Assembly: GCF_000195275.1 (NCBI RefSeq)
Contig: NC_015385.1
Span: 1,442,501 to 1,506,500 of the forward strand
Reading direction: 5' to 3'
Origin: Treponema succinifaciens DSM 2489
GTDB taxonomy: Bacteria; Spirochaetota; Spirochaetia; Treponematales; Treponemataceae
DNA length: 64,000 nt
The notes beneath the pieces were generated by a model that saw nothing but the letters and a program-made list of their open reading frames with translations, was not told the origin of the DNA and did not search any database. Below are positions 9,554 to 14,444 of this stretch, piece after piece. The position numbers and the translations under genes were made by a program. The first letter of the stretch is position 1; every line of letters begins with the position of its first letter.

Positions 9554-11035
9554 TTACTTTCTTATTCCGCAGCCACGTTCCAAAGCTTCTTTATAAACCT
9601 GAACATACTTTTCAGCAGCCTCGTCCCAGCCAAATGTTTTTTTCATTCCGGCTTGCTGCATTTTTTTGATGTGGTCTTTTTTGTTGTAGTACGCCCAGAC
9701 AGCCCAGCCAACAGTATCATAAATAGCACGCGGAGTAAGCTGTTCAAATACAAAGCCTGTGCCTTCTCCTGTCTGCTGATTGTAGTTGTCAACGGTATCC
9801 GCAAGTCCGCCAGTTTTTCTTACAATTGGCAAAGTTCCATAAAGCATTGAATAAATCTGATTCAAGCCGCACGGTTCATACTTTGACGGCATAAGGAAGA
9901 AATCACTTCCGGCTTCAATAAGATGGCTCAAAGCATCGTCGTATCCAATGTAGGCTCTAAGGTTCGGAAGTTTTGACTGCAAGGCGCAAATCTCGTTTTC
10001 GCACCAGCTTTCTCCGCTGCCAAGAATTGCAAACTGAACTTTCATGTCCGTGCAAATTTGGTAAATCGAGCCGTAAGTCGGAGCAAAAATTTCAGCAATG
10101 CCCTTCTGGTCAACAAGGCGCGTAACAATTCCAATGACGGGAATATCAGGATTTACTTCCAGCCCCATTTTTTTCTGAAGTTCTTCCTTGCACTTTGCTT
10201 TTCCAGCCATACTTCTTGCCGAGTAAGTCTCAGGGATTTTCTTGTCTATTTCTGGATTCCACTGACGTAAATCCGCGCCGTTCAAGATTCCTTTTATAAC
10301 ATCAGTTCTTGCGCGCAAAAGTCCGTCCATTCCGAACCCGCCTTCCGCAGTCTGAATTTCATGCGCATAAGTCGGCGAAACAGTCGTTATCATGTCGGAA
10401 GAAGAAACGCCGGCCTGCAAGAAATTTATTCCGCCGTCATGCTCAAAGCCCGCGCCATAATAAAGTCCCCAGTCAATTCCAAGAGCTGGAAACGAATTTT
10501 TTGAATACTGACCTTGGTAGCCCTGATTGTGAATTGTAAGAACGCTCGCTGTTTTTTCAAATCCACAGTAACGGCAAACATGCTTTAAAAGAACTGGAGC
10601 AAGACATGTTGACCAGTCGTGGCAATGAATTATGTCAGGGAACCATCCAAGCTTACGGCAAAGCTGAAAAGCTCCGTGGCAAAGAACAGCAAACCTATAA
10701 GGATTGTCGTGGAAATCAGTTTCAGAAGGAACGCCGTAAACGCCATCTCTTCCAAAGCACTGCTCATGGTCGATAAAATAAACCGAAAGCTTTTCGCATC
10801 CCGGCATTGTTGTTGTATAAACAGCCGACCAAGTTTCAACTGTTCCAGCGGCAATCGCCATAGGACCTTCAAGTTTCACAAGCCTGCTTCTGTCTATTTT
10901 ATAGTAGCGCGGCATAACAATTTTTACATCATGCCCCATTTTTGTAAGCTGAATTGCAAGCGCACTTACCATGTCTGCAAGTCCGCCAGTTTTTGCAAAA
11001 GGAACAGTTTCTGCTGTCACCATTAAAATTTTCAT
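9554..11035 (-). CDS. glgA: Glycogen synthase (ADP-glucose type, GT5)
   Basis: This 493-residue enzyme starts MKILMVTAETVPFAKTGGLAD; the KTGGLAD loop (residues 15-21) binds ADP-glucose. A second conserved block near the C-terminus (EPCGLNQIYSMLYGTLPIVRK, then TGGLADTV) completes the GT-B active site. It elongates alpha-1,4-glucan using ADP-glucose, so the cell stores glycogen. The start overlaps the stop of the upstream aminotransferase as ATGA, so translation is probably coupled. Why glycogen synthase should be coupled to an aminotransferase is not evident. The predicted native promoter of this pair now lies on the far side of an IS element. Confidence 0.95.
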   Translation of the reverse strand: MKILMVTAETVPFAKTGGLADMVSALAIQLTKMGHDVKIVMPRYYKIDRSRLVKLEGPMAIAAGTVETWSAVYTTTMPGCEKLSVYFIDHEQCFGRDGVYGVPSETDFHDNPYRFAVLCHGAFQLCRKLGWFPDIIHCHDWSTCLAPVLLKHVCRYCGFEKTASVLTIHNQGYQGQYSKNSFPALGIDWGLYYGAGFEHDGGINFLQAGVSSSDMITTVSPTYAHEIQTAEGGFGMDGLLRARTDVIKGILNGADLRQWNPEIDKKIPETYSARSMAGKAKCKEELQKKMGLEVNPDIPVIGIVTRLVDQKGIAEIFAPTYGSIYQICTDMKVQFAILGSGESWCENEICALQSKLPNLRAYIGYDDALSHLIEAGSDFFLMPSKYEPCGLNQIYSMLYGTLPIVRKTGGLADTVDNYNQQTGEGTGFVFEQLTPRAIYDTVGWAVWAYYNKKDHIKKMQQAGMKKTFGWDEAAEKYVQVYKEALERGCGIRK

Positions 11036-12237
11036 CTTTCTTCCTCCAAATTTTTCATTGCCTTTACAAAAGCCTTTCTTGAATTTTCAATTGATTTTTC
11101 GCTCACACAGTACGCAAGCCGAATCCACCCCTTTCCGCCAAAGCCGCTTCCCGGAGCAGAAAGAATATTGTATTTTTTTAAGTAATCGCAGAAAGCCATA
11201 TCGTCCGCGCCAAAAGATTCAGGAGCCCTGCACCACATATAAAACGCGCCTTCAGGAACAATATGCTCAACTCCAGCCTCGTCCAGCACGTCCATAAGCA
11301 TATCACGGCGTTTCTTATAAAGAGAATAATCAACCTTCACATTCCAAGTTTTTGCAACCACACGCTGAAAAAAAGCCGGAGCATTTACATAGCCCAAAAT
11401 TCTTGTTGTAAAAATACAAGCGGCGACAACTTCATCCTTGTCAGGGCAGACAGGATTTACGCAAATATATCCGATTCTTTCACCTGGAAGGCTTAAATTT
11501 TTTGCAAACGAAGTTACAATAATCGCGCTGTCATAAACTGGAAAAACAGGGGCTACAGAGTTACCGTCGTAAACAATCGCTCGGTAAGGCTCGTCGCACA
11601 CAAGGTACGGTTTTCTTCCGCATTTTTTTGCATGAAGCTCCAGAACTTCAGCAAGTTTTTTTATTTCTTCATTTGAATAAATGCGGCCGGTCGGATTATT
11701 CGGACTGTTTATAAGAACAGCGGCGGTTTTTTCTGTCAAGGCGGCGGAAATCGCATCCACATCAAGCGAAAAATCAGGCTTTGCAGGAACTTCAATCAAA
11801 TTTCCGCCGTAATTATGAACATAATGCCTGTATTCTGTAAAAAATGGAGAAGGAACTATAACATTGTCACCTTCAGAAAGAATAGCCTTGAAAAGACTAT
11901 TTAAAGCTCCAGCCGCACCGACAGACATTACAACACAGCTAAAGTCAACAGGAACTCCTTGCTCCGTTTCTGTTTTTTTCGCCATCGCTTCTCTTGCAAA
12001 CTGATAGCCGGGATTCGGCATATATCCATGGAAATTTTTTTCACGCTTTTTTGCAAGCTCTTCTATGCACTCAAAAATTTCTTTCGGCGGATCCAAGTCT
12101 GGATTTCCTATGCTGAAGTCAAAGACATTGTCTTCTCCGTATTTCTTCTTAAGTTCAAGGCCTTCCTCAAACATTTTTCTGATTACACCAGCAGTTTTGC
12201 TAGACATTGTTTCCTTTATATAAGGCGAAACAGGCAT
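11032..12237 (-). CDS. PLP-dependent class I aminotransferase
   Basis: The 401-residue protein has the class I/II aminotransferase fold. Visible features are NSPNNPTGRIYS (about residue 180), the DEPYRAIVYD block, the PLP-lysine motif SFAKNLSLPGERIGY with the Schiff-base lysine near residue 235, and a C-terminal RLAYC substrate-arginine motif. Related proteins are annotated as aspartate or aromatic aminotransferases; substrate is not decidable here. glgA starts within its stop codon. AGGAGCG lies 11 bases upstream of the start codon ATG at 12237. An insertion sequence begins only 40 bases upstream of that start codon. Confidence 0.88.
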   Translation of the reverse strand: MPVSPYIKETMSSKTAGVIRKMFEEGLELKKKYGEDNVFDFSIGNPDLDPPKEIFECIEELAKKREKNFHGYMPNPGYQFAREAMAKKTETEQGVPVDFSCVVMSVGAAGALNSLFKAILSEGDNVIVPSPFFTEYRHYVHNYGGNLIEVPAKPDFSLDVDAISAALTEKTAAVLINSPNNPTGRIYSNEEIKKLAEVLELHAKKCGRKPYLVCDEPYRAIVYDGNSVAPVFPVYDSAIIVTSFAKNLSLPGERIGYICVNPVCPDKDEVVAACIFTTRILGYVNAPAFFQRVVAKTWNVKVDYSLYKKRRDMLMDVLDEAGVEHIVPEGAFYMWCRAPESFGADDMAFCDYLKKYNILSAPGSGFGGKGWIRLAYCVSEKSIENSRKAFVKAMKNLEEER

Positions 12238-12269: not shown

Positions 12270-12277
12270 AAAAATTA
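12270..12277. repeat. Left target-site duplication of the IS
   Basis: AAAAATTA here is identical to 14211-14218 on the other side of the element. An 8-bp duplication is the size known for the IS1595 family. Confidence 0.93.
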
Positions 12278-12303
12278 CGGAATTATCCCCTAACACACTC
12301 TTA
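12278..12303 (+). repeat. Left terminal inverted repeat of the IS
   Basis: Begins CGGAATTATCCCC and pairs with the right end at 24 of 26 positions; mismatches are at positions 15 and 17 of the repeat. Confidence 0.95.
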
Positions 12304-12311
12304 GTTATTAA

Positions 12312-12359
12312 AAAAAACAAGAAATATTACAAACGACAAAACTATATTTCTTGTTTTTT
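12312..12359. terminator. Bidirectional terminator inside the left IS end
   Basis: A 15-bp perfect stem (12312-12326 with 12345-12359) has T-runs on both strands. It should stop transcripts leaving the IS toward the aminotransferase gene and transcripts entering from outside. Confidence 0.7.
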
Positions 12360-12368
12360 TATTATATG

Positions 12369-12446
12369 CTAAAATTCAAAATCTTTCCATATTAAATCAA
12401 AAAAATGTTCATCATAAAAATCAATGTAATTTTTTTTACACCTCAT
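12369..12446 (-). CDS. Possible 25-residue micro-ORF at the IS left end
   Basis: On the minus strand an ATG at 12446 follows AAAGGA at 8-9 bases and opens 25 codons that end at a TAG just before the bidirectional terminator. The predicted peptide is rich in Phe, Asp and Lys and not hydrophobic overall. I recognise no family. A good ribosome-binding site and the terminator right after the stop are the only support. No clear promoter of its own is seen, although a TATAAT lies about 70 bases upstream. It may be a chance ORF in A/T-rich DNA. Confidence 0.3.
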   Translation of the reverse strand: MRCKKNYIDFYDEHFFDLIWKDFEF

Positions 12447-12481
12447 TAAATTTATCCTTTTAAGAGGCTTTCTGTATCATA

Positions 12482-12510
12482 TTGACAAATAACTTATAAA
12501 TGCTTAATAT
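12482..12510 (+). promoter_or_regulatory. Consensus-like promoter inside the IS, opposing the transposase
   Basis: TTGACA at 12482-12487, a 17-base spacer, then TAATAT at 12505-12510, reading on the plus strand toward the transposase 3' end. No ORF with a ribosome-binding site follows. Confidence 0.5.
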
Positions 12511-12516
12511 TATACA

Positions 12517-12630
12517 AAAAGCGAGAACATTTGTTCCCTTTGTTAATAAATATCAGATTGCCGTTTCCCAAAAGTATCTGATAATCCGTTTCAAAAGCCT
12601 TTCTTTCGCCAAAAAGAAAGGCTTTATCTT
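12517..12630 (+). ncRNA. Putative small RNA convergent with the transposase
   Basis: Transcription from the promoter at 12482-12510 would begin near 12517 and meet a 12-bp terminator-like stem at 12595-12624, giving an RNA of about 115 bases. The interval contains two more possible stems: GAACA/TGTTC near 12514-12536 and TATCAGAT/ATCTGATA near 12550-12583. No protein-coding potential is seen. The product would be complementary to the 3' untranslated region of the transposase message, but not to its coding sequence. This is a prediction from promoter, stems and terminator only. Confidence 0.35.
12595..12624 (-). terminator. Terminator after the transposase gene
   Basis: A perfect 12-bp stem (12595-12606 with 12613-12624) and a 6-base loop, 44 bases downstream of the transposase stop. 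The U-run on the minus strand is short (TTTT). The same stem could also end a plus-strand RNA. Confidence 0.6.
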
Positions 12631-12667
12631 TATACTATACATTTCAAGGATTTAAATCAATATTGAA

Positions 12668-13579
12668 TTATGCCGCAAATATCCCCTGCTTTAACAGTAC
12701 ATCAAATGAGCTTGTTCCGTTGTTCTGCCGGAAACAGAATTCGTTTACATATTCCTGCAAGTAGTCTACAGAAACGTGATGATAAATTCCGAGAATTCCA
12801 CGCTTCAACAGTGCCCAGAACGATTCAATTCCGTTTGTATGAAGTCCGTTGCCGAGGCTGTAAATGCTTTCTAAATGATTTACGCTGATTCTGTAGTAGT
12901 TGTTTTTATTTGTGTTTTTATGGTTCATAAAATTGTAGCCTCTAAAATCATCGGTCAGAACCGTTGCGTCTTTCTTGCATACGCTGTCAAGAATATTGAA
13001 AAGCTGCTTTCCTGTAAGTTTCTTGCCTTCTTCGTTTGGAAGTGCTACCTTTGCGAATACGTGGCTTGAACTTCTTTCTTTTACACCTACAACAGGAGTT
13101 TTTTTAGTTCCACGTCCACGCTTTGAAGGCTCTGTTTCGCCGTTCATTTTTCTAGGTTTACCGCCGATATATGTTTCGTCAATTTCGACCATTGCTTCAA
13201 ATGCTTTTGACATATCAGTGTTTCCCATTGCAGAGCGTATCTGCTTGAGCATTCTCCACGCTGTTTTATATGTTACGCCGATTTCACGCTGTAACTGCAA
13301 GCCGGAAATTCCTTTTTTAGAATTCAAAAATAAATGGATTGCATAGAACCATTTACGCAGGTCTGTTGATGACTTTTCAAAGATTGTGTTTTTGAATGGT
13401 GAGAATGTATTATTGCAGTTATGGCAGTTACAAAGTTTTAGATTGTCATTTCTGTGCTGAACACGAACTTTTGAACCGCAGTGAGGGCATATAAGAACAT
13501 CGTTATATCTGATTTTGAGAAAGTATTTTATAACGGCTTTTTCAGTCGGAAACTTTATCATAAAATCAAAGAATGTCAT
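12668..13579 (-). CDS. IS1595-family (ISXO2-like) DDE transposase
   Basis: The 303-residue protein has an N-terminal zinc ribbon (C31xxC34 and C52xxC55), a helical linker region, and an ISXO2-like catalytic domain. Catalytic acids are visible as D134 in VEIDETYIGG, D210 or D211 in LTDDFRGY, and E252 in NGIESFW. All expected residues are intact, so the enzyme is probably active. It would cut and paste the element at its 26-bp inverted repeats. An AGGAGG element precedes the ATG at 13579. The small ribbon-helix-helix-like gene ends 16 bases upstream, so the two are almost certainly on one message. Confidence 0.93.
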   Translation of the reverse strand: MTFFDFMIKFPTEKAVIKYFLKIRYNDVLICPHCGSKVRVQHRNDNLKLCNCHNCNNTFSPFKNTIFEKSSTDLRKWFYAIHLFLNSKKGISGLQLQREIGVTYKTAWRMLKQIRSAMGNTDMSKAFEAMVEIDETYIGGKPRKMNGETEPSKRGRGTKKTPVVGVKERSSSHVFAKVALPNEEGKKLTGKQLFNILDSVCKKDATVLTDDFRGYNFMNHKNTNKNNYYRISVNHLESIYSLGNGLHTNGIESFWALLKRGILGIYHHVSVDYLQEYVNEFCFRQNNGTSSFDVLLKQGIFAA

Positions 13580-13595
13580 ATATGCCTCCTGCTTT

Positions 13596-13796
13596 TTAGT
13601 TTTTCAAAACAGAATCAATAATCAACCTGCTTACTGTTTTATTCTGTTCTTTTGCTTTTTGTTTTATTGCCATTTCCTCAGATTCAAGGCAGGAAATGAC
13701 AATCCGTCCGTTTTTATATCCTGTATTATTTGTTGTGCTTCCTTTTTTTCTGCCTGCTCCGGCTCTTGTTCCGCCGTGCTGTGTTGTTTTTTCCAT
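13596..13796 (-). CDS. Small basic ribbon-helix-helix-like protein in the IS
   Basis: This 66-residue product starts at ATG 13796 with GTAGGTGA ahead of it. Residues 8-19 (GGTRAGAGRKKG) are a flexible basic, AT-hook-like arm seen at the N-terminus of several DNA-associated proteins of mobile elements. Residues 30-66 fit a ribbon-helix-helix pattern: a strand (GRIVISCL), then a helix of Glu/Lys/Ala, then VSRLIIDSVL. It may bind the IS ends or repress the IS promoter. A longer reading frame extends upstream to 13925, but that start has no ribosome-binding site and covers another micro-ORF. Function is inferred only. Confidence 0.7.
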   Translation of the reverse strand: MEKTTQHGGTRAGAGRKKGSTTNNTGYKNGRIVISCLESEEMAIKQKAKEQNKTVSRLIIDSVLKN

Positions 13797-13804
13797 AAAA
13801 TCAC

Positions 13805-13882
13805 CTACATTATAAACCTTAACGCAATATCCAAAACTTGAAGAATTAAAATTGCTATCAGTATTTTTTCCATTCTGTTCAT
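13805..13882 (-). CDS. 25-residue hydrophobic micro-ORF in the IS
   Basis: An ATG at 13882 follows AGGAG with 8 bases between. The 25 codons encode a short polar start (Asn, Arg, Glu, Lys) followed by an uninterrupted hydrophobic helix of about 18 residues rich in Ile and Leu. The TAG stop overlaps the ribosome-binding site of the next gene (TAGGTGA), so translation could be coupled to it. The size and composition are like single-pass membrane peptides or type I toxin peptides, but I recognise no family. Too short to exclude chance; the ribosome-binding site and coupling are the evidence. Confidence 0.45.
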   Translation of the reverse strand: MNRMEKILIAILILQVLDIALRFIM

Positions 13883-13916
13883 TATTGACACTCCTATATA
13901 ATTTGATTATTTTTAA

Positions 13917-13951
13917 ACCGTTCATAGATATTGGCGGTATCTATGAACGGT
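13917..13951. other. Perfect 14-bp stem-loop between the two micro-ORFs
   Basis: ACCGTTCATAGATA (13917-13930) pairs perfectly with 13938-13951 across a 7-base loop. On the minus strand it lies 6 bases after the stop of the 37-codon ORF and is followed by TTTAAAAA, a poor U-run. It could be an attenuator, an RNA-processing site or a protein-binding palindrome. Confidence 0.8.
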
Positions 13952-13957
13952 GGAAAA

Positions 13958-14071
13958 CTAAGCAGACAGCTTAGAAACCAGGTCAAGTATGAACTTTAGA
14001 AGTTCTAGCAGAAAAACCAGCAAGGCGATTTTGTCTGCTCTTGACCACAGTTTTTTCTTTTTTCGTTTCAC
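13958..14071 (-). CDS. 37-residue Lys-rich hydrophobic micro-ORF, first gene in the IS
   Basis: A GTG at 14071 lies 10 bases after a full AGGAGG and opens 37 codons. The peptide starts with a Lys/Arg block (residues 2-7), then Leu-Trp-Ser, and then an amphipathic to hydrophobic helix (about residues 12-35) rich in Leu, Phe and Ile with regularly placed Glu, Lys and Asp. A consensus-like promoter sits about 26 bases upstream. A strong perfect hairpin follows the stop. The build resembles small membrane-active peptides, but no family is recognised. Being the first ORF behind the only strong IS promoter with a strong ribosome-binding site makes it more than a random frame. Confidence 0.5.
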   Translation of the reverse strand: MKRKKKKLWSRADKIALLVFLLELLKFILDLVSKLSA

Positions 14072-14096
14072 ATTTCTATTACCTCCTGATGTTTAT

Positions 14097-14125
14097 AATA
14101 TAATACATCTTGATTATTATGTCAA
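14097..14125 (-). promoter_or_regulatory. Promoter of the IS gene set
   Basis: On the minus strand a perfect TTGACA (14125-14120), a 17-base spacer and TATATT (14102-14097). AGGAGGT follows at 14087-14081. Confidence 0.7.
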
Positions 14126-14184
14126 TAAAAATCAAATAAAAATGTAAAAAAAAATATGAAAATTTGTCGAATTTTATGTTATAT

Positions 14185-14210
14185 TAAGAGTGTATGAGGG
14201 GATAATTCCG
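14185..14210 (-). repeat. Right terminal inverted repeat of the IS
   Basis: Its complement begins CGGAATTATCCCC and matches the left repeat at 24 of 26 positions. Confidence 0.95.
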
Positions 14211-14218
14211 AAAAATTA
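14211..14218. repeat. Right target-site duplication of the IS
   Basis: AAAAATTA, identical to 12270-12277. It overlaps the -10 hexamer of a predicted minus-strand promoter. Confidence 0.93.
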
Positions 14219-14371: not shown

Positions 14372-14444
14372 GCTGCTTTAGCTCAGTTGGTAGAGCACGT
14401 GATTTGTAATCTCGGGGTCGTGGGTCCAAGTCCTACAAGCAGCT
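14372..14444 (+). tRNA. tRNA-Thr (anticodon TGT)
   Basis: A cloverleaf can be drawn: acceptor GCTGCTT/AAGCAGC, D arm GCTC/GAGC with AGTTGGTA loop, anticodon loop TTTGTAA reading TGT, and T stem GTGGG/CCTAC. Two positions are odd. The anticodon stem CGTGA/TCTCG contains a T-T mismatch (29-41). The T loop reads TCCAAGT, so position 55 is C rather than the near-universal T. CCA is not encoded. It shares a promoter with the downstream tRNA-Tyr. Confidence 0.85.

Follow-up and report, generated by a model that had tools for sequence, protein, structure and literature searches.

A conserved spirochaete operon with a predicted antisense RNA, apparently carried as a passenger by an IS1595-family insertion sequence

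The AapA/IsoA modules of Helicobacter are type I toxin-antitoxin systems in which a short, hydrophobic and basic peptide is paired with a structured antisense RNA that lies over its open reading frame. In the YonT/YoyJ/SR6 system of Bacillus subtilis two toxins encoded on the same polycistronic mRNA are under the control of a single antisense RNA (PMC5848175). SR6 pairs with the 3' end of yonT and with the ribosome-binding site of yoyJ, and yoyJ is broken in other Bacillus (PMC5848175). Toxin-antitoxin modules of type II occur as passengers of Tn3-family transposons, where they adjoin the transposition genes and where some of the antitoxins are ribbon-helix-helix (RHH) proteins (PMC7157771). 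With respect to phylogenetic range, a paper from 2025 states that, until its own cyanobacterial case, no type I systems had been known outside Proteobacteria, Firmicutes and Tenericutes (PMC12390103). In the open-licence literature which we searched, no report of type I toxin-antitoxin systems in spirochaetes was found.

The window, i.e., the whole stretch of 64 kb of DNA analysed here, contains at 12278-14210 an intact insertion sequence (IS) of 1933 bp. The left terminal inverted repeat (12278-12303, forward strand) matches the opposite end (14185-14210, reverse strand) at 24 of 26 positions, and an exact 8-bp target duplication, AAAAATTA, is located at 12270-12277 and 14211-14218; in both respects the preliminary description was correct. 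On the reverse strand (12668-13579) the IS encodes a transposase of 303 aa which in a family-model scan matches NF033547 (E 2.4e-56, 191 bits, cut-off 75) and PF12762 (E 1.1e-30, 107 bits, cut-off 27). By its DDE transposase of the IS1595/ISXO2 type, its inverted repeats and its 8-bp duplications the element belongs to the IS1595 family. The 390 bp between the transposase stop and the end of the IS (12278-12667) hold no convincing gene; hairpins are present at 12311-12360 and at 12594-12625, the latter a terminator-like structure 3' of the transposase. The element is placed between an aminotransferase-like gene (11032-12237) and two tRNA genes (14372-14444 and from 14451 onwards), which follow about 160 bp past its end.

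In the genome, which consists of a chromosome of 2,731,853 bp and a replicon of 165,572 bp, ten near-identical copies of the IS were found, nine of them identical end to end. All ten carry the two micro-ORFs described below, and all ten are flanked by 8-bp duplications. One copy (L225; G000:C1:751600-753533) has an additional base at IS position 986 which causes a frameshift in the transposase; its micro-ORFs are intact. Two further copies (C2:141286 and C1:1267875; L226 from 387 and L227 from 476) are extended at the right end by 36 bp which close with a second inverted-repeat-like end, TATAAGAGTGTATAAAGGGATAATTCCG. Because the duplications of these two copies, TTTTGGAA and TACAATTT, are both positioned outside of the extension, the longer form of 1969 bp has evidently itself transposed.

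Ahead of the transposase, and on the same strand, the promoter TTGACA-N17-TATATT (14093-14125, reverse strand, scoring 11/12) is predicted to drive four genes. The first, ORF1 (13958-14071, reverse strand), comprises 37 codons, starts with GTG and is preceded by AGGAGG; its Lys-rich hydrophobic peptide is the candidate toxin. A perfect hairpin (13918-13950) occupies the gap to ORF2 (13805-13882, reverse strand), which has 25 codons, is preceded by AGGAG (AGGAGTGTCAATA) and encodes a single hydrophobic helix. The ORF2 stop TAG overlaps TAGGTGA, the ribosome-binding site of the third gene (13596-13796, reverse strand), which encodes an RHH DNA-binding protein of 66 aa; the transposase is the fourth gene. 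Both ORFs, hairpin, 66-aa gene and ribosome-binding sites are all located where the preliminary description had put them. Its suggestion that the 66-aa gene is RHH-like is borne out, since a profile of the protein matches NikA (2ba3) in a comparison against the PDB with an E of 5.7e-6. A single-sequence AlphaFold model, which depicts the same protein as one long helix, is uninformative.

The micro-ORFs had been called unrecognised, and indeed no family library identifies either peptide: against the type I toxin models in Pfam, NCBIfam and PHROGs ORF1 and ORF2 gave no match, only weak matches to unrelated or unknown families. Likewise, the PADLOC models of anti-phage defence did not match the module, and Rfam returned nothing relevant. 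A relationship of ORF2 with BsrG/TxpA/Hol_Tox, an idea derived from the motif RFEKLMI, was dropped for want of Pfam support. The hairpin was also considered as an integron attC site, and this was discarded in view of its position within the operon between ORF1 and ORF2 and not at the ends of the module.

How did such genes get into a small IS? Related transposases were sought in a named collection and in 274 genomes belonging to the same family, and 11 related IS1595 loci with 55-72% identity were found. They share with the window IS the transposase, the inverted repeats and the 8-bp duplication, yet differ in their flanks: 51-114 nt separate the transposase start from the inverted repeat and, where measured, about 22-143 nt follow the transposase, compared to 631 and 390 nt in the window IS. 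All 11 loci lack the micro-ORFs, and an ancestral IS1595 trait was rejected for this reason. In the nearest relative (L016, 72% identity) a promoter and AGGAGG are found immediately 5' of the transposase. Since the relatives are short in this region and the L016 promoter adjoins the transposase, the segment that begins with the promoter and stops just short of the transposase is most readily interpreted as an insertion, and the module as a passenger of the window IS which was captured between promoter and transposase. The preliminary description had considered toxin-like or IS-maintenance peptides as possibilities and had proposed a comparison of related ISs as a test. Carried out with these relatives, the comparison speaks against a general maintenance role, all the more as the module resides mostly in prophages and elsewhere.

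The 66-aa protein, and after it a profile built on it, served as query against the 274 genomes. Homologues are present in 80 of them, and many of these are preceded by a pair of small hydrophobic ORFs which keep the order seen in the window IS and have strong ribosome-binding sites. A detector, which requires a small hydrophobic ORF1 and ORF2 at fixed spacing plus an antisense promoter, was run on the fetched DNA. It reported 45, then 58 unique loci, and 70 distinct ORF1/ORF2 pairs once viral contigs were added; in the 64-kb window it reported the window IS alone. In 5.5 Mb of Markov-shuffled sequence it had no match, so the arrangement exceeds chance. The peptides have a mean length of 35 aa (ORF1) and 33 aa (ORF2) and a net charge of about +3; they are in the range of type I toxins, i.e., hydrophobic peptides below about 60 aa, with hydrophobicity being a criterion of the detector. 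A sense promoter scoring at least 10/12 precedes 58 of the 70 loci. The hosts belong to the family of the window, to one other family of its class, and to one family of the same phylum outside of this class.

Sequence changes among 19 independent pairs give a pooled pN/pS of 0.37 for ORF1 and 0.39 for ORF2, which indicates that both are under purifying selection. Together with a ribosome-binding-site layout that is the same in dozens of loci, this upholds the earlier proposal that the micro-ORFs are genuine conserved genes. The three-gene unit is genuine and conserved among spirochaetes and their phages, and apparently has not been described before. Could the micro-ORFs and the hairpin nevertheless be accidents of non-coding IS DNA? 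ORFs of this size are frequent by chance, and the related IS1595 elements do without them; but recurrence, codon-level selection and the empty shuffles have already refuted this explanation, which we regard as having next to no chance of being right.

The genomic surroundings of the module are diverse. In Mu-like prophages it adjoins CI/S24 repressors and MuA-type transposase genes (L069, L071, L074), at L115 and L117 it is close to terminase genes, at L075 it is located downstream of a tyrosine integrase, and at L076 and L079 it is seemingly solitary in the chromosome. Tandem modules exist at L068, L070 and L115, and in IMG/VR viral contigs the number of modules reaches four per contig. Four or five different modules are packed into about 5-8.5 kb in the prophage region L115 (G179:C50:114000-122500) and in the viral contig L216. 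The viral scan with the RHH protein of the window yielded loci without a module, and a second RHH query yielded many module loci; plasmid and annotated phage collections queried with RHH proteins gave no match.

Such surroundings suggest another explanation, namely that ORF1 and ORF2 are a membrane peptide pair expressed from the prophage, by which the lysogen excludes superinfecting phages or serves some other membrane function, with antisense control merely setting the dose. Such phage accessory genes would fit the modules' frequent vicinity, in Mu-like prophages, to CI-type repressors and MuA transposase genes, their closeness to terminase genes, and the presence of several different modules per phage. 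Yet antisense repression against a strong promoter would be unusual for a constitutive exclusion gene, and modules are also found in an IS, next to an integrase gene and, seemingly, on their own in chromosomes. We consider this explanation quite improbable.

A further mobile context was detected in the complete Treponema genome G062, where the module and an adjoining ISNCY-family transposase form a unit of about 1.94 kb that is repeated in the genome. This is likely a second case of capture of the module by an IS. Within the unit (L065:4869-6813; L066) module and transposase are convergent, and one of its copies is split by an IS256-type (Mutator) element.

The preliminary description had overlooked a promoter, an RNA and a terminator predicted on the opposite strand. 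In the ORF1-ORF2 gap this strand displays TTGACA, a spacer of 16-18 nt and TAnnnT, oriented toward ORF1. In the window the promoter is located at 13885-13913 (forward strand), with the -35 box TTGACA at 13885-13890, a 17-nt spacer and the -10 box TATTTT at 13908-13913. GTCAA, which is conserved ahead of ORF2, corresponds to TTGACA on the complementary strand. The -35 box directly adjoins the start codon of ORF2 or overlaps with it. Among the 70 pairs 61 have the exact TTGACA, and in 28 the start codon is inside the box (ATGTCAA). Most module loci were reached via the adjoining RHH gene and the detector itself requires the promoter; therefore, only a test with 17 loci is free of selection bias. 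These were picked on the ORFs alone before the promoter had been noticed, and several copies from the same locus are among them. An antisense promoter scoring at least 9/12 is present in 17 of 17, whereas dinucleotide shuffles predict 0.92; at least 10/12 is reached in 11 of 17, compared to an expectation of 0.11. At the starts of 368 ordinary genes, used as a control, the frequencies are 4.9% and 0.3%, respectively. In type I systems the cis-encoded antisense RNA is transcribed from a separate promoter that opposes the toxin gene, and such a promoter is predicted at all 17 loci. With a score of 10/12, the -10 box TATTTT and a shuffle P of 0.022, the one in the window ranks with the weaker promoters.

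The RNA predicted to start here has a length of about 105-150 nt across loci; it begins with the hairpin and then runs antisense through ORF1. In the window it comprises about 145 nt (13919-14063, forward strand), is complementary to nearly all of ORF1 and is the candidate antitoxin. The intergenic hairpin is its 5' stem-loop, internal stem-loops follow, and a predicted terminator (13981-14063, forward strand) consists of a GGTCAAG...CTTGACC stem ahead of TTTTTTCTTTTTT, which on the other strand corresponds to Lys codons of ORF1. For 13914-14068 the predicted folding energy is -49.8 kcal/mol (z -5.4). A 5' hairpin of -8 kcal/mol or better is predicted in 95% of loci and in 39% of shuffles, an intrinsic terminator of -12 kcal/mol or better in 50% and 1.8%, respectively; about half of the loci are without a convincing antisense terminator. 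The terminators are mostly predicted to end within ORF1, some 15-30 nt from its start, the T-tract often being ORF1 Lys codons, and the RNA covers neither ribosome-binding site. RNAalifold on 12 mixed sequences gave no usable result owing to 5' stems that could not be aligned with each other, and a closer group was used instead. In this subgroup of five sequences compensatory changes occur at 2 of 9 pairs of the 5' stem, with a covariation score above all shuffles, which lends the stem modest support.

The third gene starts between -23 and +11 nt from the ORF2 stop in most loci. It usually encodes an RHH protein of one of several subfamilies, sometimes a helix-turn-helix (HTH) protein; variants with HTH in place of RHH are L054:632-891 (reverse strand) and L172. 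The preliminary description had taken the basic protein for a possible repressor or antitoxin. As antisense promoter, RNA and terminator are predicted, the RNA is the likely antitoxin instead. A type II-like system, in which the RHH protein neutralizes one of the peptides and the antisense promoter is incidental, would accord with the abundance of RHH proteins among type II antitoxins and with weak matches to RelB-antitoxin profiles. The promoter is, however, too constant to be incidental, and a third gene that is exchanged between RHH subfamilies or for HTH after similar ORF1 and ORF2 does not behave like a toxin-binding partner. We judge a type II-like system to be highly improbable.

Operon, conservation, antisense promoter, hairpin and passenger status can thus be read from the sequence, and so can a terminator in about half of the loci. 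On this basis we propose, with moderate confidence, that the captured mobile operon is controlled by an antisense RNA and works most likely as a type I toxin-antitoxin module. The strong promoter would generate one mRNA for ORF1, a candidate membrane-active toxin, for ORF2, a second membrane peptide, and for the small RHH protein, a likely autorepressor. The opposing promoter would produce a short structured RNA which starts with the stem-loop, continues antisense to ORF1 and ends in its first codons. Pairing with the mRNA would result in block or degradation and silence the presumably toxic ORF1. Upon loss of the element the labile RNA would disappear first and leave ORF1 unrestrained, i.e., addiction. 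Since the module is positioned between promoter and transposase, the latter would share its control as fourth gene of the operon.

Precisely this position also suits a circuit for control of copy number or transposition, in which antisense RNA and RHH protein throttle the polycistronic mRNA, here limiting the transposase, and ORF1 and ORF2 are mainly leader peptides or weak effectors. CopG and RNAII of pMV158 plasmids and RNA-OUT of IS10 are parallels. The transposase is downstream in the same operon of the window IS, the RHH protein and the predicted antisense RNA occur together, and modules are commonly carried by mobile elements. On the other hand, most loci are without a downstream transposase or replication gene, and the purifying selection on the peptides would be needless for a pure leader. 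A control circuit therefore seems unlikely to us as the main function.

Returning to the type I interpretation, a more far-reaching version is put forward tentatively, as possible but short of probable. The modules may constitute a new RNA-controlled addiction family of Spirochaetota, made up of two membrane peptides, an antisense RNA and an exchangeable DNA-binding protein, which Mu-like phages, other prophages and two unrelated IS types each acquired independently; in the IS1595 element the transposase would be the fourth gene of an addiction operon, with one switch for transposition and addiction. A family that is present in three or more spirochaete families and in their phages, and that can be searched for by a diagnostic promoter signature, would widen the range of type I systems. 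If true, the transposase operon of a small IS here provides a concrete example of an internal RNA-type addiction module, and the notion that such modules serve mobile elements becomes directly testable.

Among described systems, YonT/YoyJ/SR6 of B. subtilis has the layout closest to that of the module. The likeness concerns the architecture only: two small peptides, toxins in B. subtilis, on a polycistronic mRNA, one antisense RNA between them, and a prophage as carrier. Family scans detect no sequence similarity of the peptides, and because they match no known toxin family we do not claim descent from known type I families. In contrast to SR6, the predicted RNA of the module starts beyond the ORF1 stop and extends across this ORF as far as its first codons, while ORF2 is reached by the -35 box only; in addition, the module has a conserved DNA-binding third gene and a conserved ORF2. 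AapA/IsoA resembles the module in its short, hydrophobic and basic peptide and in the placement of an antisense RNA, predicted for the module, over the ORF; it is not known to include a second peptide or an RHH gene, and its peptide sequence differs. What the module has in common with the type II passengers of Tn3-family transposons is an addiction-type unit that adjoins transposition genes in a mobile element. Those are protein-protein systems in transposons of several kb, whereas the module would be of the RNA-antisense type, in an IS of 1.9 kb and within the transposase operon itself.
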